From positions 1 through 36,710 of the forward strand of contig JAJRZV010000064.1 of NCBI GenBank assembly GCA_024275095.1: a stretch of 36,710 bases of DNA, read 5' to 3'. How positions within the stretch are numbered: the first letter of the stretch is position 1; every line of letters begins with the position of its first letter. This DNA comes from a bacterium. GTDB taxonomy: Bacteria; JAJRZV01. Below, piece by piece: positions 80 to 26,772 of this stretch. The notes below the pieces were generated by a model. It was not told the origin of the DNA, made no database searches, and was given only the letters and a program-made list of their open reading frames with translations. Position numbers and translations under genes: made by a program.

Positions 80-1117
80 CTATGCCGGCTCCACGCTGTC
101 ACGGGAGCGCATTTTTACACGGTACATGGCCTGATCAGCCAGCCGGATAAGGTCGAGCTTGTTGTCGGTGTCTTCTGGATAACATGACACCCCGAAGCTG
201 GCAGTTATGCGGACAATAAGCCCGTTTTCCATTTCAAACGTGGCTTCGCGGATGGCTTCCCGCAGTCGCCATGCAACTTTAAGGGCCCCTTCTTTGTCTG
301 TCTCTGGAAGAATAATTACAAATTCGTCGCCTCCGTAACGGGTGGGCACGTCTATTTCACGAAGGTTTCGTTTGAGCAACCCGGCAACCTCGCGCAGAAG
401 CTGACTGCCTATGAGATGACCGTGTGTGTCATTGATGTTTTTGAAAAAATCCAGGTCGAGGAAAATGATGCTCAGGGGCTTGCCATAACGCTTTGCACGC
501 TTGAGCTCCAGGTCCAGAACATTGTTCATATGCCTGGAGTTGTAAAGTCCGGTCACATCATCCCGGATGGAAAGTTCCTGGACCTTGCGGAAGTAGATCG
601 CATTTTCTATGGCGATAGCAGCATAGTCAGCCAGGGTCATGAGAAGAGTCTTTTCATGTTCGGTGATGGTTGAACTGCTTGTGTCCTTCACAAGTTCAAT
701 AACACCGAGGATACGCCCCTTGCTCTTGAGAGGCAGGCATATTATGGAACTGTTCTCGAAATCTTCGATAATTTCTCCAAAACGCGATGCCTCCTTTTTT
801 ACTTCTGTGGAACTGAGGATGAGCATCTCTCCGGTTTTTGCCACGAATCCAGGGATGCCTTCTCCTATCTTCATCCGCTTCCCCTTCAGGTGCCTGGCAG
901 CATCTCCCACGAGAATTTGAAAGTAGAGCTCTCCGCTTTTCTCGTCAACCAACATGAGGGACCAGCTTTTGGGACGAAGGAGCTTGGAAATCTGGTCCAT
1001 GATCTTGTTGAGCACGTCGTTGAGTTCCAGCGAGGACGTGAGGGTTTTGCCAATTTCGATAAAAAGGGCAAGATTGTTTCCCTGATTCGGATTTTTTTCA
1101 GGATGTTCGACAGCCAT
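80..1117 (-). CDS. GAF-GGDEF nucleotide cyclase with Hypr-type Ser specificity residue
   Basis: This is a cytoplasmic cyclic-dinucleotide synthase of 345 aa. Residues about 15-175 form a GAF sensor domain and about 180-340 a GGDEF domain. The active-site GGDEF is at 262-266. An intact inhibitory I-site RxxD (R253, D256) lies five residues upstream. The metal and base motif FKNIND (225-230) is followed by GH at 233-234 and then G237-S238. In ordinary diguanylate cyclases position 238 is Asp (GD), which contacts guanine. Ser here is the known signature of the Hypr subgroup (GSU1658 type), which makes 3',3'-cGAMP as well as c-di-GMP; that product is inferred for this protein. No transmembrane or signal segment is visible. 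The ATG at 1117 has an AAGGGG Shine-Dalgarno (1128-1133, spacing 10). It is the last gene of the minus-strand block but has a good promoter of its own inside the polX tail. Confidence 0.93.
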   Translation of the reverse strand: MAVEHPEKNPNQGNNLALFIEIGKTLTSSLELNDVLNKIMDQISKLLRPKSWSLMLVDEKSGELYFQILVGDAARHLKGKRMKIGEGIPGFVAKTGEMLILSSTEVKKEASRFGEIIEDFENSSIICLPLKSKGRILGVIELVKDTSSSTITEHEKTLLMTLADYAAIAIENAIYFRKVQELSIRDDVTGLYNSRHMNNVLDLELKRAKRYGKPLSIIFLDLDFFKNINDTHGHLIGSQLLREVAGLLKRNLREIDVPTRYGGDEFVIILPETDKEGALKVAWRLREAIREATFEMENGLIVRITASFGVSCYPEDTDNKLDLIRLADQAMYRVKMRSRDSVEPA

Positions 1118-1167: not shown

Positions 1168-1197
1168 ATTATATTCACCTTTTAGCCCCTTTTCCAA
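1168..1197 (-). promoter_or_regulatory. sigma70-type promoter for the GGDEF gene
   Basis: Read on the minus strand: -35 TTGGAA (1197-1192), an 18-bp spacer, and a perfect -10 TATAAT (1173-1168). The -35 lies inside the last codons of polX. The expected start near 1161 gives a leader of about 44 nt with an AAGGGG Shine-Dalgarno. Confidence 0.5.
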
Positions 1198-10932: not shown

Positions 10933-12462
10933 ATGACGCCAGGAGAACATTTGCACGGAAAGCTGGGTGGCATGCGGTTTATAAGGCTCCTGCGGGAGAT
11001 TAACGAAAATAAACTGACGGGAATTCTGCGTCTTGAAAGAGGCAATATTATCAAGGAAATTTACTTCAGCGACGGCGAACCCATTAATGCCCGGTCCAAT
11101 ATGACCCGTGAAACCTTAGGCCGGGTGCTTCTGGATAGAGGGTACATCTCCCAGGAAGATTACAACCAGTCGCTGGAGATGATGGGAAAGACAGGTAAAA
11201 AACACGGGGAAATTCTTATGGAAATGGGCGTGCTTCCCATCGGTCTCAAAAAAGCGCTTCAGATGCAGGCGGAAGACCGCATTCTTGATGTTTTCACATG
11301 GGAGGAGGGGACTTACCGTTTTATCGAACGCAAGGATATTTCCAAGCTCATTGAGAGCCTTAATCTCAACAGCGCCAAAATCATATACGAGGGTGTTATT
11401 AAAAAGGCGCCGATTTCAATTCTCGAAAATATTATGCGCGAGTATAGCAAGAAGAAACTCGTATTTAATGAATCCAGCCCCATCCTCACCAGAACCAATA
11501 TCAGACCAAGCCATCTTGAGTTTTTACGTCTCTTCGATGGTGAGAAGACAGTGGAGGAAGTGGTGAAGTCTTCAGGTATGAATATTAACCAGGCCTCCAG
11601 ATTGATACTGATAGGAGTACTTCTCGATCTTCTTCATCTTAAACACGAAAAGGAAGAGATCCCTCCGCCGGCTGAGATTGAAGAAGAGGTAAAAGAGGAG
11701 GAAACCCTTACTGACCGAGACAGGACGATGCTGGAAGCCCTTGAAAAGACCATTACTGATATGAAGAAAAAGAACTACCTGGAAATCTTCAATCTTGATG
11801 ATGATTTTTCTGAGAGGGACTTGAAGAAAAATTATTTCATGCTTGCCCGTTCGTATCATCCAGACAGGTTTTACACGTTTCACCCGCGTGTGAAGGCTGT
11901 GGCGGAAGAAATTTTTACTCTCATCAACGAGGCCTATCAGATTTTGAGTAATCCGTCGGAGCGCACGAATTACATCGCCATGCTGCGTACGGGAGGCCGC
12001 GCAGTTACCGAGAAGGATGCCCAGGCAGCCCTTTCCGCAGAAATGGAATTCCAGAAGGGTCAGGTGCTTCTCAAGCAGGGAAAGCTGGACCAGGCGAAGA
12101 CCTATTTCGAACGCGCGGTGGAGCTCAATCCTGACGAAAGTGAGTACGCTGTTTTTCTCGGCTGGACCCTTTTCCGCCTTGGCAAACGGTCGGGTGACGA
12201 GTCTCTTGCGCGCAAGGGCAAGGATATGCTCACAACAGCGGTTGAAAAAGTAGACGGCTCTGAAAAAGGACATTTCTTCCTCGGCCAGGTGCTGAAAGTG
12301 GAAAATGATCTTACCGGTGCCATAAAGCATTTTGAAAAAGTGGTTCAGATTAATCCTGACAACGTGGATGCTGTCAGAGAATTGAGAATCCTTCGCATGC
12401 GGCTTGAAAAAGAAGGGGGTAAGAAGGACAAGTCAGGGCTGTTTAAAAAGTTCTTTAAGTAA
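10933..12462 (+). CDS. PATAN/DUF4388 - DnaJ domain - TPR fusion protein
   Basis: 509 aa, cytoplasmic, no signal or membrane segment. The N-terminal 100 residues match the DUF4388 (PATAN) pattern (RLLREI, LTGILRLERG, IYFSDGEPINARSN). A middle DUF4388-associated helical region runs to about 230, then an acidic linker (EEEVKEEE). A J domain at about 275-345 has an intact HPD (near 307) and ERTNYI. TPR-like repeats follow at about 360-480, and the tail is basic (KEGGKKDKSGLFKKFFK). PATAN domains are found in deltaproteobacterial, cyanobacterial and similar signalling proteins, where some bind response regulators. The HPD suggests it recruits a DnaK. Exact function is unknown. ATG at 10933 has a GGAGGG Shine-Dalgarno and overlaps the glnE end region, so it is cotranscribed with glnE. 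Confidence 0.85.
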   Translation: MTPGEHLHGKLGGMRFIRLLREINENKLTGILRLERGNIIKEIYFSDGEPINARSNMTRETLGRVLLDRGYISQEDYNQSLEMMGKTGKKHGEILMEMGVLPIGLKKALQMQAEDRILDVFTWEEGTYRFIERKDISKLIESLNLNSAKIIYEGVIKKAPISILENIMREYSKKKLVFNESSPILTRTNIRPSHLEFLRLFDGEKTVEEVVKSSGMNINQASRLILIGVLLDLLHLKHEKEEIPPPAEIEEEVKEEETLTDRDRTMLEALEKTITDMKKKNYLEIFNLDDDFSERDLKKNYFMLARSYHPDRFYTFHPRVKAVAEEIFTLINEAYQILSNPSERTNYIAMLRTGGRAVTEKDAQAALSAEMEFQKGQVLLKQGKLDQAKTYFERAVELNPDESEYAVFLGWTLFRLGKRSGDESLARKGKDMLTTAVEKVDGSEKGHFFLGQVLKVENDLTGAIKHFEKVVQINPDNVDAVRELRILRMRLEKEGGKKDKSGLFKKFFK

Positions 12463-12720: not shown

Positions 12721-14562
12721 GTGAAAGATTTCAAGGAAGTAAGTGCTGAAAGGGTCGTTATTGCTGACGGAGCAATGGGGACGGAGATATACCGGCGAGG
12801 GGTATTTATAAACGTCAATTTCGACAGGCTTAATCTGACAGACCCCCATCTGGTACGGCGCATTCATGAGGAATATGTGAGCGCAGGTGCTGAAGTGCTC
12901 GAGACTAATACCTTTGGCGCCAACAGAGTCAAGCTCGCCAAGTATGGATTTGAAAAGGATGTGAGAGAGATCAATATCCGGGGAGTCAGGCTTGCCAGAG
13001 AAGTGGCTGCAGAACGTGCATGGGTTGGAGGTGCTGTAGGACCATTGGGGCGCCCTCTCAAACCTGTTGGTGTCATAGACGAAAGCGAGGCACGTGAAGC
13101 ATTTAGAGAACAACTGGAGGCCCTTTTTGAAGGAGGTGTGGACCTTATCATTTTCGAGACATTCGAAGATCTGAGGGAGCTCAAAATCGCGGTCGAAGAA
13201 GCACGCAGGATTTCGTCAGATATTCCGGTGGTGGTCATGTTTTCTTTTCGCTACTACGGGGAAGGGAGATTTGAAGGTTCTACCCCCGAGGAAGCTGTCC
13301 GGACTATGAGCAAATGGGACGTGGATCTCATCGGTACCAATTGTGGTAACGGTCCCAGGGGCATTCTGGATATTGTGGAGAGGATGGCCCCCCTTGCCGA
13401 GAAGCCCCTTGCCGCCATGCCGAATGCGGGCTTGCCCGAAATGATTGACGGGCGGCTCATTTATATGACCACACCAGAATATTTTGCAGAGTACGGGCGC
13501 CGGATGGTTCTCAAGGGGGTGTCACTTGTGGGAGGATGCTGTGGAACGACTCCCGAGCACATAAAGGAACTGAGAAAGTTTATTCGCTCTGTTTCTCCTG
13601 CACGGTCTGTTGTGGTGGAAAAACCCGGGGATATGCGAATGGAGTCACTGCCCCCCGTGCCTCTTGAGAAACGTTCGCGTTTTGGCAGCAGGTTGGGCAG
13701 AGAATTTATTATCTCTGTGGAGATAGATCCTCCCCGGGGGATAGATCCTTCACCTTCTCTTGAAGGCGCGAGGTTTCTTGCCCGTGAAGGCATTCACGCT
13801 GTCAATATTGCTGATGGGCCTCGTGCTATGGCACGCATGTCACCGGTGGCTCTTGGAGTACTCATCCGTGATAATGTTCCTGAACTGGACATTATCCTTC
13901 ATTACACCTGCCGCGACAGGAACCTTCTCGGGATGCAGATGGATCTTATCGGTGCTAACGCCTTGAATCTCAACAACATCCTCGCGGTTACAGGTGATCC
14001 ACCAAAAATGGGAGATTATCCAGATGCCACCGCAGTGTTTGATACAGATTCCATAGGACTGATCCGGTTTATCCAGATGCTCAACCGGGGACTGGACCTT
14101 GCAGGCCGGCCACTGGGTCAACAGACGGCACTGGTTGTAGGAGCTGGGTGCAATCCAGGTTCTGTAAACCTCGACGTGGAGGTGGAGAGGTTTGGTCGTA
14201 AGATAGAGGCAGGCGCGGAATTTTTCTTTTCCCAGCCCGTGTATGATCCTGAACTTCTGTACCGTTTTTTTGAACTCACGGCCTCATTCCCGGAGGTCCC
14301 CTTTTTCGTGGGCATTCTGCCCCTGTCCAGTTACCGCATGGCCGAATTTTTCCACAATGAAGTGCCCGGGATGCAGGTGCCGGAAGACGTACTGGAACGC
14401 ATGAAGAAAGCGGGTTCAGAAAGCGCCCAGCGAGAGGAAGGTACCCGCATCGCGGCGGAGGCATTGCGGGAGGCCAAGAAACACCCGCGCGTGAAAGGGG
14501 CATATATCTTTCCGCCCGGTGGCAGGTACGAGAGAGTGTTCGATGTACTCGAAAAGGTTTAA
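12721..14562 (+). CDS. bifunctional homocysteine S-methyltransferase / methylenetetrahydrofolate reductase
   Basis: 613 aa, with an arrangement like Bacillus YitJ. Residues 1-290 are a betaine/MetH-type homocysteine methyltransferase barrel: DGAMGTE near the start, and the zinc-thiolate triad C208 (TNCGNGP), C273 and C274 (GGCCGTTPEH). Residues 310-613 are a flavin MTHFR barrel (VSVEIDPPRG, CRDRN, NILAVTGDPPKMGDYP, FFSQPVYD). The pair would reduce methylene-THF to methyl-THF and pass homocysteine to methionine. Which methyl donor the first half uses is unknown, since it lacks a MetH cobalamin domain. The start is GTG at 12721, fixed by AGGGGA 8 nt upstream. A dipeptidase follows 11 nt later. 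Confidence 0.93.
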   Translation: MKDFKEVSAERVVIADGAMGTEIYRRGVFINVNFDRLNLTDPHLVRRIHEEYVSAGAEVLETNTFGANRVKLAKYGFEKDVREINIRGVRLAREVAAERAWVGGAVGPLGRPLKPVGVIDESEAREAFREQLEALFEGGVDLIIFETFEDLRELKIAVEEARRISSDIPVVVMFSFRYYGEGRFEGSTPEEAVRTMSKWDVDLIGTNCGNGPRGILDIVERMAPLAEKPLAAMPNAGLPEMIDGRLIYMTTPEYFAEYGRRMVLKGVSLVGGCCGTTPEHIKELRKFIRSVSPARSVVVEKPGDMRMESLPPVPLEKRSRFGSRLGREFIISVEIDPPRGIDPSPSLEGARFLAREGIHAVNIADGPRAMARMSPVALGVLIRDNVPELDIILHYTCRDRNLLGMQMDLIGANALNLNNILAVTGDPPKMGDYPDATAVFDTDSIGLIRFIQMLNRGLDLAGRPLGQQTALVVGAGCNPGSVNLDVEVERFGRKIEAGAEFFFSQPVYDPELLYRFFELTASFPEVPFFVGILPLSSYRMAEFFHNEVPGMQVPEDVLERMKKAGSESAQREEGTRIAAEALREAKKHPRVKGAYIFPPGGRYERVFDVLEKV

Positions 14563-22610: not shown

Positions 22611-24242
22611 ATGGAATCCGAAAAGCGTGCATTGTTAGCCATTGCTCTTGCGTTTATCTTTCTCATGGCATACCAGTACTTGCTTTCCCGGTACTACAGA
22701 AAGGGTGAAACCCCACCGTCTCCCCCTCCAGCCGCAGAAAGTAAGAAAGAACCTTCTGCAATACCAGAACCGGTTAAGCCTTCGACCCCACCCGCAATTT
22801 CACCCTCACGTGCCGCCGTGACGGAAAGAAGGGAGGGGCCTGTTGTACGTTTGAAAACCCCTCTTTACCAGGCACTTGTTGATGTGACCACCGGGGGACT
22901 CAGATCTTTCCGCCTTCAGCATTATCTGACAGAGCTTCCCCCTGATGGAGTGCCGGTGGAACTGATAGATGAAAACGTTGATCCGCTCCCACTGAGTGTG
23001 TTTCTTCTGGAAAAGCAAAAGGTGCTGATGCCGGAGTCGTTCAACATTTCCCGGCTTCGCAAGGCAGGTAGAGATGAAGAATGGCCTTCCTCATTTACCG
23101 CGTGGGCACGGGCAGGTGAATTTATCCTTCTTGAGACGTGGACGCTCAGGCAAGGCACCTACGTAGTAGACCTTACCACCACAATAATCAACATATCCAA
23201 CCGTACTCGCAACGTGGCTCTCGAGGTTTTTCTTTCGCGGAGCCTGCGGGGACGAAAATCCTACCACGAATTCAAAGGACTTATGGCTCTGGAAAGGAAA
23301 AAATTAATCAAGGTAAAGCTGAAAAAACTCGGTGAGGTTCAGAGCTTTGGTGAAGGCCTTCAATGGATAGGTTTTTCTGACAAGTATTTTCTCATTGCAC
23401 TGATACCTCAGGAAGCTCACGGGCTCGCTGCTAAGGCGAAGGCAACTGAGGGTATCGGCCAGGCGTTCGTTTATTATCCGGAAAGTGTGTTGCCCCCCGG
23501 GGGAAAGGTGTCTTTTACAACCTCAGCGTATCTGGGGCCAAAAAAAGAAGAGGACCTGAAAGCAGCGGGTGGCGGCCTGATCGAGTCACTTGAGCTGGGC
23601 ATTCTTACAGGTCCCATGTTGAAGTTGCTCAAGTTGTTTTACCGCTTCACGGGTAATTACGGGCTGGCTATTATCATTCTTTCCCTCCTTGTGAAAATTG
23701 CTTTCTGGCCTCTCAGCCACATCAGTTATCGCAGTATGAAAAAAATGAAAGAAATTCAGCCGGTGCTCGAAGAGCTCAAAAAGAAATACGGGGATGACAA
23801 GGAAAAACTCGCCATGGAAACGATGGAAATTTACCGGCGTTACAAAGTGAATCCCTTTTCAGGATGCCTTCCGCTGATTATCCAGCTTCCTGTTTTTATT
23901 GCTCTGTATCGGGCGCTTCTCAATGCTATTGAACTGAGGCATGCTCCTTTTGTTTTGTGGATAAAAGATCTTTCTTCCCCTGATCTTCTGTTTACCCTCA
24001 ATCTTCACGTTTTTGTTCTGCCCGTCCGACTCCTGCCCATACTCATGGGCGTTACCATGTACGCACAGCAAAGGCTTACGCCCACAGGTGGACAGGATCC
24101 ATTGCAGTCCAGAATCATGAATTACATGTCACTCATATTTACGGTGCTTTTCTGGAATTTTCCTTCAGGATTGATGATTTACTGGGTTCTACAGAACGTG
24201 CTCAGCTTGTTGCAGCAATTATATGTGATGCGATCTTCATGA
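22611..24242 (+). CDS. yidC: membrane protein insertase YidC
   Basis: 543 aa, the Gram-negative form: N-terminal signal anchor (about 6-24), a Pro-rich linker, a periplasmic beta-sandwich domain to about 330, then the five-helix insertase core. The core shows NYGLAIIILSLLVK, the coiled loop MKKMKEIQPVLEELKKKYGDD, VNPFSGCLPLIIQLPVF, ELRHAPFVLWIKDLSSPD, ILMGVTMYAQQ and FPSGLMIYW, all close to the E. coli pattern. It inserts and folds inner-membrane proteins alone or with SecYEG. Its stop overlaps the next start by 4 bp. Confidence 0.97.
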   Translation: MESEKRALLAIALAFIFLMAYQYLLSRYYRKGETPPSPPPAAESKKEPSAIPEPVKPSTPPAISPSRAAVTERREGPVVRLKTPLYQALVDVTTGGLRSFRLQHYLTELPPDGVPVELIDENVDPLPLSVFLLEKQKVLMPESFNISRLRKAGRDEEWPSSFTAWARAGEFILLETWTLRQGTYVVDLTTTIINISNRTRNVALEVFLSRSLRGRKSYHEFKGLMALERKKLIKVKLKKLGEVQSFGEGLQWIGFSDKYFLIALIPQEAHGLAAKAKATEGIGQAFVYYPESVLPPGGKVSFTTSAYLGPKKEEDLKAAGGGLIESLELGILTGPMLKLLKLFYRFTGNYGLAIIILSLLVKIAFWPLSHISYRSMKKMKEIQPVLEELKKKYGDDKEKLAMETMEIYRRYKVNPFSGCLPLIIQLPVFIALYRALLNAIELRHAPFVLWIKDLSSPDLLFTLNLHVFVLPVRLLPILMGVTMYAQQRLTPTGGQDPLQSRIMNYMSLIFTVLFWNFPSGLMIYWVLQNVLSLLQQLYVMRSS

Positions 24243-25303
24243 AGAAAGTCGTTCTTTTTACATTCATGACAATGATCAGCTCGTGTGGTTATACACCCAA
24301 ATGTAAAGTCCCGCGTGAAGGAGAATTCGCCTTTCCTTTAAAAATGATTGTTCGAAATCAGAGGCTTTACGTGCTCAATACAGACGCAGGTACCCGTTAC
24401 TGTTCCGGTTTTGTCTCTGTTTTTGCTCTGAATGGAGATGCTCGCCCCTCTTTTGTGAATCACATCTATCCTTTACCTCCGGAGGGGGGTTTCCCTTCCA
24501 TGCTCGGTGGCTTTGATGTGGAAGGAGAAGACATGGTCGTATCAGACCGCAGGTACAGCCGGGTGATACTTACGTCTCTTGAATCCTATGAAGCAGAAAA
24601 TTGTACACCCCCTGATTTTACAGAGGGGTGCTCTTCTTCTGTAATAGATACGTTTCGAGACCCCTTGGATGTTGAAATTACGCCGGATGGGTATCTTTTT
24701 GTTTCGTCTACGCCGTACGGAGAGGTCAGAATGTATACCAGGACCCTTACTTCGTACGTTTCGGCAGCCACGTATTCTTTTGTTTCGAATGTGACAGAAA
24801 CAACCACCGCGTTTTTATCTCCGGCAGAGAACAGGATTTACGTAACCATTCGTGAGCGTCCTGATGTGTATTATTTTGACAATCAAAACGGGGAATGGAG
24901 CCTTACACATGGTCCGTCTCTGGAATATGGAGGCGTGTCTTTCGGTGGAGTTCGCAGAATTGTCCCTGCCGGAGACACGCTTTTAATACTTGCAACCTCT
25001 CCTGATTCTCTGATTGTTGCTGACAATGAGACCCTCACCTTTGAGAAAGTAGTGTACAGTGGTTCTCATCCCATCCACCTTGCAACGGACGGCCGTTTTA
25101 TTGCAGTGGCTAATTTTACCGAAGATACCGTTTCTTTTTATCATTCTGAGTCGTTAAGCCCTCTGGGAACATTTCCGGTATGCCACGGCCCGGCATTCAT
25201 TGTGGCTTCATCTGAGGCAGGGGTATTCTGGGTGTCATGCTTTTTTGAACACAGGGTGGTGGCCATCAACGTGGAGGGAGAAATCCAGTGGAAACTTCCC
25301 TGA
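24239..25303 (+). CDS. predicted lipoprotein, beta-propeller-like (first of two)
   Basis: 354 aa. The N terminus MKKVVLFTFMTMISSC gives a short type II signal with lipobox ISSC, so C16 would be lipidated. The rest is beta-rich with repeating units such as GGFDVEGEDMVVSDRR, DPLDVEITPDGYLFVSS and IHLATDGRFIAVANFTEDTVSFY, typical of NHL/YVTN-like propeller blades. No catalytic motif is visible; it may be a scaffold or binding protein of the envelope. It starts on the yidC stop (ATGA) and its end overlaps the next lipoprotein by 16 bp. Function unknown; position next to yidC suggests an envelope-assembly role, but this is inference. Confidence 0.78.
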   Translation: MKKVVLFTFMTMISSCGYTPKCKVPREGEFAFPLKMIVRNQRLYVLNTDAGTRYCSGFVSVFALNGDARPSFVNHIYPLPPEGGFPSMLGGFDVEGEDMVVSDRRYSRVILTSLESYEAENCTPPDFTEGCSSSVIDTFRDPLDVEITPDGYLFVSSTPYGEVRMYTRTLTSYVSAATYSFVSNVTETTTAFLSPAENRIYVTIRERPDVYYFDNQNGEWSLTHGPSLEYGGVSFGGVRRIVPAGDTLLILATSPDSLIVADNETLTFEKVVYSGSHPIHLATDGRFIAVANFTEDTVSFYHSESLSPLGTFPVCHGPAFIVASSEAGVFWVSCFFEHRVVAINVEGEIQWKLP

Positions 25304-26772
25304 AAAAAAGGTTGATTCTTGTTGTTTTTATCTTCCTCATCGGCTGCAGCGGTAAGGAAGAGTCCAGAACTCCTTTTTCTCAACCCGGTGATATTGCCGT
25401 GTATCAAGCGGAAGGGGAGGAATGGGTGGTGGTGGCAGAAAAGGACGCTCTGGCCCTGGTTAATGCAGAAGAAGGAGTAATAAAGGAGGTTGTTTCCGTG
25501 GATGGAGTCCCTCTTTTGTTGGCCGCTGAAGGTTCCAGTGCTTATGCAGTTGTGCGTACGCCGGAGGAATCCTTTGTGCTTTATCAGTACGCTCATCCGT
25601 TAAGCTTCGTGCGGAGTTATCAACTCCCTTTTACCATGGTTGCTCCGCTCGAACTGGTGAGTGCACAGGGACTTGTTGTTCTCGCAGGTGTGGAGAGTAC
25701 AGGAGCCACCTTTATGGTGACCATGATTCACTCGGGTTCATGGGCTGCTCTTCAAAACATAGATTATGCTGGAGCAATGACAGATTCTCTGGGAATTCTT
25801 GTGGTAGAAAGATCGGGAAAAATTTATCTTGTCAGGGACGATGGAACTCTCTCTCCACTCTTTGATTCCGGCATTTCGTCTCCGTCAGCGGCGTGCGCAT
25901 GTGCTTCATCACTCTGTATCGCCCGGGAGAATACAGTTTTTGTTTATGATAAAGATACGGGGATGCTGGTGGATACAATTGAGCTGGATGCACCTGTGAT
26001 GCAATGCGGCACGATGGGCGGCATTGCATCCTTTATGGGAGATGGGGTCGAGGCTCCCGTGGTTTACGTGCTGGGAGCTGATGGACACATCTATTTCCTG
26101 GACACACTGCGCTGGTGTGAAAAGTCGCATCCCGTGCCAGGTATAACCAGTGTGAACGATATTGGAGATACAAATGATTATGTGCTTACAGTAGATGATG
26201 TCGACGAGTGCTCTGTGCAGACCCAGACGTGGACGATCACCTACGAAGGGTTTCACCCTTTCATGACGGGTATTACAGTATCCGTGTTCCCTGGGGGGAT
26301 TACGGAACTGTCTGAGCAGTGGCAATATGATGTTGTTATGCCCGGGGATGAGGTGTATTTGCAGGACAGGTGGTATTCCGTAAGTGTTACAGGCCCGGGT
26401 TACATGCAGCTGAATCCTGAACCCGGTTTTACAGGGTCCTGTACAGCCACCGTGAGGTTGAAGGGTTTCAGTGTTTATGGCTCGCTTTCAGGTCTCCAGC
26501 ACGGCAGGCTGGTGCCATCTCAGGCTTACACAGTGGATGATGGGAGCCTTACCTTTGCACTAACTCTTACGGGTGAGCCTGATCCTGGTGATTCCGTTAC
26601 CGTTGCTTTCTATCGCAGAGACCCTCTTCTTCCTGTAAAGCTGTCTTCTCCGCCCGGGGGCCTGGAGGCATCAATGCTTTACGGCTGGCTGTACGTGACC
26701 ACCCCGTACGATGGGTATCTCCGGATTATTAAACTGGAAAGCGAGGTGAAAGAGGTACTGGTGGGAAAATAA
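25288..26772 (+). CDS. predicted lipoprotein (second of two)
   Basis: 494 aa. GTG at 25288 with GGAGGG nine nt upstream; the signal runs through LKKRLILVVFIF to lipobox LIGC, lipidating C20. The first 300 residues look like a second beta-propeller (GDIAVYQAEGEEWVVVAEKDALALV; DNTVFVYDKDTGMLVDTIEL-like blade). The C-terminal 180 are beta-sandwich-like and Gly/Ser-rich, with no family I recognise. Overlap with the first lipoprotein implies they are made together and may form a pair. The mnmE start shares one base with its stop (TAATG). Confidence 0.75.
   Translation: METSLKKRLILVVFIFLIGCSGKEESRTPFSQPGDIAVYQAEGEEWVVVAEKDALALVNAEEGVIKEVVSVDGVPLLLAAEGSSAYAVVRTPEESFVLYQYAHPLSFVRSYQLPFTMVAPLELVSAQGLVVLAGVESTGATFMVTMIHSGSWAALQNIDYAGAMTDSLGILVVERSGKIYLVRDDGTLSPLFDSGISSPSAACACASSLCIARENTVFVYDKDTGMLVDTIELDAPVMQCGTMGGIASFMGDGVEAPVVYVLGADGHIYFLDTLRWCEKSHPVPGITSVNDIGDTNDYVLTVDDVDECSVQTQTWTITYEGFHPFMTGITVSVFPGGITELSEQWQYDVVMPGDEVYLQDRWYSVSVTGPGYMQLNPEPGFTGSCTATVRLKGFSVYGSLSGLQHGRLVPSQAYTVDDGSLTFALTLTGEPDPGDSVTVAFYRRDPLLPVKLSSPPGGLEASMLYGWLYVTTPYDGYLRIIKLESEVKEVLVGK

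Follow-up and report, generated by a model that had tools for sequence, protein, structure and literature searches.

We found that the protein encoded at positions 80..1117 on the minus strand of the window, the whole analysed stretch of 36,710 nucleotides, carries the signature of the Hypr (hybrid promiscuous) GGDEF enzymes. The ORF, Pfam matches, alignment and tree indicate a 345-aa GAF-GGDEF protein that is predicted to synthesize cGAMP and c-di-GMP, and it is very probably a soluble homodimeric enzyme of the Hypr subfamily. Hypr GGDEF enzymes are already known, and on solid sequence grounds the window protein can be regarded as a new representative from a deeply branching bacterium. The original prediction had named it a candidate 3',3'-cGAMP synthase. 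That assignment is supported, still as a prediction, by Ser238, S194, the GGDEF context, the match to the structure 6d9m and the trees built with masked signature columns.

The ORF is intact, with an ATG start and an in-frame stop, and the purine-rich sequence GAAGGGG is located a few bases 5' of the ATG. A PolX-like gene (1175-2929) precedes it on the minus strand, with a gap of 57 bases. A TTGGAA-18-TATAAT sequence between the two genes (1168..1197, minus strand) is promoter-like on weak evidence, and the count of such sites is close to the chance expectation, not above it. Since the 3' end of the gene is 80 bases from the contig end, a single flank is visible, and among the neighbor genes on it we saw no tie to a cGAMP pathway. 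Nine neighbors were searched in 80 homologue loci with zero matches. Conserved synteny was rejected, as the recurring neighbors of the homologues are mostly limited to single phyla. Elsewhere in the window there are a DUF4388-DnaJ-TPR fusion protein (10933-12462), a homocysteine S-methyltransferase fused with methylenetetrahydrofolate reductase (12721-14562), and two long ORFs (354 and 494 aa; 24239-26772) without a Pfam match between yidC and mnmE.

The protein is composed of a GAF domain (aa 30-171; 605..1030; PF01590 E 7e-14, PF13185 E 1e-12) and a GGDEF catalytic domain (aa 184-340; 98..568; Pfam E 2e-45), both, like every feature of the gene given below, on the minus strand. In the AlphaFold model (mean pLDDT 86; mostly > 90 in the GGDEF part), the two domains are linked by a long helix (aa 153-184; 566..661), which is probably a signaling helix. 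GAF domains bind many different ligands or serve for dimerization only, and that of the window protein is a putative sensory or dimerization module. By eye, the stretch equivalent to the NKxnFx3DE motif of cyclic-nucleotide GAF domains reads VKDTSSSTITEHE, so that cyclic-nucleotide binding via a motif of this type is not indicated by the sequence. The control by a GAF ligand that the original prediction had added is a guess.

The base-specificity position is occupied by Ser238 (codon AGT, 404..406) in the motif FFKNINDTHGHLIGS. The original prediction had placed a Ser at this position and proposed alignment with Hypr and canonical GGDEF domains as a check; in that alignment, Ser238 falls on D344 of PleD and S348 of GmGacA with no gap nearby, and Ser thus replaces the Asp of PleD. 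This column is Ser in 25 of the 25 rows formed by the query and its close homologues from several phyla; therefore, Ser238 is neither a stray mutation nor a sequencing error. The alignment likewise bears out that the GGDEF motif and the I-site RxxD are intact. The motif (aa 262-266; 320..334), which holds D264 (metal) and E265 (general base), is exactly GGDEF and not GGEEF. According to the 'Goldilocks' rule, GGDE[F/Y] is required with the Ser pocket and GGEEF does not work with it; the general base of GGDEF catalysis is described in the same paper (PMC6456294). The I-site is R253-E-I-D256 (REID, aa 253-256; 350..361), and its second arginine is kept as R284 (266..268), equivalent to R390 of PleD, R393 of GsGacA and R394 of GmGacA. 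Loss of R393 in GsGacA increased cGAMP 30-fold (PMC6456294). The other matches to GmGacA are N229 to N339, D264 to D374 and E265 to E375. The GGDEF domain (PF00990) is of full length, and the catalytic residues D221, K226, N229, D264, E265, K335 and R339 are all present and invariant in the 25-row alignment.

A feature additional to those in the original prediction is the cross-dimer residue, Ser194 (536..538), which corresponds to R300 of PleD and Tyr304 of GmGacA and is therefore non-Arg. This residue stacks on the base, and 94% of predicted diguanylate cyclases carry an Arg here (PMC6456294). When the site holds Tyr, Ser, Ala or Gln, Hypr enzymes produce mainly cGAMP, and two Hypr enzymes with Arg produce more c-di-GMP (PMC6456294). 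Ser at the specificity position is by itself no proof of cGAMP synthesis, because the canonical GGDEF enzyme GSU3350 with an engineered Asp-to-Ser substitution still made only c-di-GMP (PMC6456294).

The behavior of GSU3350 and of the two Arg-bearing enzymes gives some weight to another reading, in which the window protein is in practice a diguanylate cyclase: its Ser pocket would tolerate GTP, c-di-GMP would be the main product in the cell, and cGAMP would be a minor by-product. Hypr enzymes are also known to yield c-di-GMP (PMC9140294), and the PilZ and MshEN domains of the genome usually read c-di-GMP; the genome also gave no GEMM-I riboswitch match. However, the cross-dimer residue is Ser, as in the characterized enzymes that make mainly cGAMP, and the window protein belongs to the Ser group by nature and is no point mutant of a canonical enzyme. 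Moreover, three intact Asp-type GGDEF domains in the same genome would serve c-di-GMP. We thus consider that a diguanylate cyclase in this sense is unlikely. Non-canonical GGDEF domains are often degenerate, so a catalytically inactive domain that serves only as a nucleotide-binding receptor might be imagined, but such a role is highly improbable with an exact GGDEF motif and a complete, invariant set of catalytic residues.

The placement as a Hypr enzyme is consistent with the structural comparison. The best sequence match in the PDB is the Hypr GGDEF domain of GmGacA, 6d9m (178 bits, about 52% identity across the domain), vs 128 bits at most for PleD and other canonical enzymes. The GGDEF part of the AlphaFold model matches solved GGDEF domains, with Geobacter GacA 6d9m in the top three; in full-length matches the placement of GAF against GGDEF differs (high rmsd), and only the GGDEF-domain match is meaningful. 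GacA (GSU1658 / Gmet_1914) resembles the window protein in the Ser specificity site, GGDEF, the non-Arg cross-dimer residue and the I-site. In contrast, GacA has an N-terminal receiver domain, which the window protein does not have, and its cross-dimer residue is Tyr instead of Ser. PleD shares the fold and the catalytic and I-site residues, but has Asp344, Arg300 and GGEEF where the window protein has Ser, Ser and GGDEF. Bd0367 of Bdellovibrio bacteriovorus, a native Hypr enzyme with an in vivo cGAMP role for which an S-to-D test was reported, has the Ser specificity residue in common with the window protein, and its products also include c-di-GMP and c-di-AMP (PMC9140294). Bd0367 itself is absent from our alignment; for Bdellovibrionales sequences with the same signature, the match is confined to the GGDEF domain or its vicinity, and they fall in the same 55-row set of the tree as the query, on a different branch.

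Short GAF-GGDEF Ser-type enzymes of Acidobacteriota, Desulfuromonadales and Myxococcota share with the window protein the domain layout, a similar length and the Ser/GGDEF/non-Arg signature, with 35-51% identity in the 25-row alignment. One of them, the 364-aa protein of M. xanthus AM003, may by its length be MXAN2643, which is putatively one of GacA and GacB of this species. Both GacA and GacB have been described as Hypr enzymes that synthesize cGAMP (PMC8844925). A strain table from 2016 gives residues 11-355 as deleted in MXAN2643, with a printed total of 265 that is presumably 365 (PMC4877007).

The sample of relatives consisted of 80 named loci from a scan of species-representative genomes, supplemented with relatives from 40 further genomes. 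Because the peptide patterns used to fetch the loci came from aligned Ser-type proteins, the sample leans toward the Ser type. The specificity column divides the 113 relatives into 53 with Ser/Thr and 60 with Asp. In the Ser/Thr class, GGDE[F/Y] is found in 53/53 and a cross-dimer Arg in 0/53, vs a cross-dimer Arg in 43/60 and GGEEF in 37/60 of the Asp class; the 113 rows are related and not independent, so very small p-values overstate this contrast. These counts reproduce the published Hypr rule on a new sample. Every single-domain GAF-GGDEF homologue with a score of more than about 230 bits has Ser and GGDEF and lacks a cross-dimer Arg.

For the trees, the three signature columns were masked. 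In a quick tree, the query was grouped with the characterized Hypr enzyme GmGacA in a 55-row set (SH-aLRT 95) composed of 52 Ser, 1 Thr, 1 Gly and 1 Asp rows. In a careful tree, the query was located in 17- and 19-row sets that are all Ser (98/85 and 99/88). The Ser-type rows need two changes in this tree, not one, and a single origin is therefore not proven; only 7% of bootstrap trees separate the whole Ser group from the other rows by a single branch. The receiver-less short GAF-GGDEF form spans Acidobacteriota, Desulfuromonadales, Myxococcota, Methylomirabilota and Nitrospirales, and the sample adds Ser, Ala, Val, Gly and Phe as natural cross-dimer variants. A double-GAF protein of bacterium isolate B12_G15 (locus L072, 5953-7527) with Ser/GGDEY and a cross-dimer Ser is a further Hypr-like variant; its genome has the closest MnmE (40%) to that of the window. 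A GGDEF enzyme of Deferrisomatales in the Hypr set (locus L079, 2879-4555) has Gly at the specificity site and Ala at the cross-dimer site, and its product is not predictable.

From the characterized relatives we infer the dimerization, substrates, product and regulation of the window protein as follows. Each GGDEF domain would bind one purine nucleotide, and Ser238 would form hydrogen bonds with the Watson-Crick edge of guanine or adenine, so that both ATP and GTP can serve as substrates. D264 would position the metal at the distance demanded by the short Ser pocket, and E265 would be the general base, acting across the dimer. With Ser194 in place of the guanine-favoring Arg, G would no longer be preferred across the dimer. 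We expect mainly 3',3'-cGAMP to be produced; because the enzyme class is promiscuous, some c-di-GMP should form as a co-product, and c-di-GMP would act back on the enzyme through the intact I-site. The dimer geometry is probably set by the GAF domain together with the long helix, upon some input.

The genome of the window (2.45 Mb, 136 contigs, 97% complete) has no close relative among the compared genomes: the best MnmE match in 27 genomes is 40%, and all comparison genomes are related to it at the 'same domain' level only. We did not find 16S in this genome, and a plasmid search gave only distant matches (29-40% identity). Identity between the window enzyme and homologues from other phyla is about 50%, above the value for MnmE, which would fit horizontal transfer of the enzyme without showing it. 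The genome encodes five GGDEF proteins, of which the window protein is the sole Ser-type; three have Asp (L001, L002 and L004), and one is a weak match. Neither an EAL domain nor a SMODS nucleotidyltransferase (CD-NTase, the DncV-type cGAMP synthase) was found in the genome, which has six HD-GYP, six PilZ and four MshEN domains. The six HD-GYP proteins could be turnover enzymes; the HD-GYP class includes a known cGAMP phosphodiesterase, PmxA (PMC8844925). Co-location with HD-GYP was rejected as a mark of Hypr genes, as it was seen at 3/50 Ser-type vs 10/30 Asp-type loci. One contig of the genome (C60, locus L164, 191-5011) carries genes for three proteins: one that is adenylate-cyclase-like, one in which two cyclic-nucleotide-binding-like repeats occur (these two named by eye), and a GAF-HD-GYP protein whose GAF domain is 33% identical to that of the window protein.

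Geobacter reads cGAMP via GEMM-Ib riboswitches, whereas none was found in the window genome. The search for them that the original prediction had proposed gave 0 matches to RF01051 in the 97% complete genome; 150/189 first-look candidates were scored, which makes a miss possible but unlikely. The three Geobacter-like control genomes were positive, with 23 matches in the Geomonas, 4 in the Desulfuromonadales and 5 in the Pelobacter genome. The cGAMP receptor is therefore probably something other than a recognized GEMM-I riboswitch. Several genomes that hold a short GAF-GGDEF Ser-type enzyme gave no GEMM-I match. The six PilZ and four MshEN domains are candidate receptors; in one measured case, MshEN bound cGAMP about 600-fold more weakly than c-di-GMP (PMC5013675). 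Immediately downstream of the Hypr gene in the close relative G019 are genes for an MshEN-nuclease fusion and then a PilT-like ATPase; farther on there is a gene for a receiver-HD-GYP protein. At this locus (L165, contig C50, 6719-8729), MshEN is fused to a PD-(D/E)XK nuclease-like domain, followed by a PilT/T2SSE-type ATPase, which is an unusual arrangement. The fusion is a candidate cyclic-dinucleotide receptor, and the gene arrangement is a lead only, because, at the sampled loci, HD-GYP genes do not occur more often beside Ser-type than beside Asp-type GGDEF genes. We tentatively suggest, with more doubt than confidence, that cGAMP is read by a protein receptor such as PilZ or MshEN instead of a GEMM-I riboswitch and is removed by an HD-GYP phosphodiesterase.

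In conclusion, the signature of Hypr cGAMP synthases now reaches a deeply branching bacterium, and the short GAF-GGDEF group is widespread across five bacterial groups. Because several of the genomes that bear these enzymes have no GEMM-I match, the group points to further cGAMP receptors. The Ser, Ala, Val, Gly and Phe variants at the cross-dimer site are natural material for the question of what sets the product ratio. If cGAMP is indeed read by a protein, the gene order in G019 would allow the idea of a protein receptor in Hypr cGAMP signaling to be tested.
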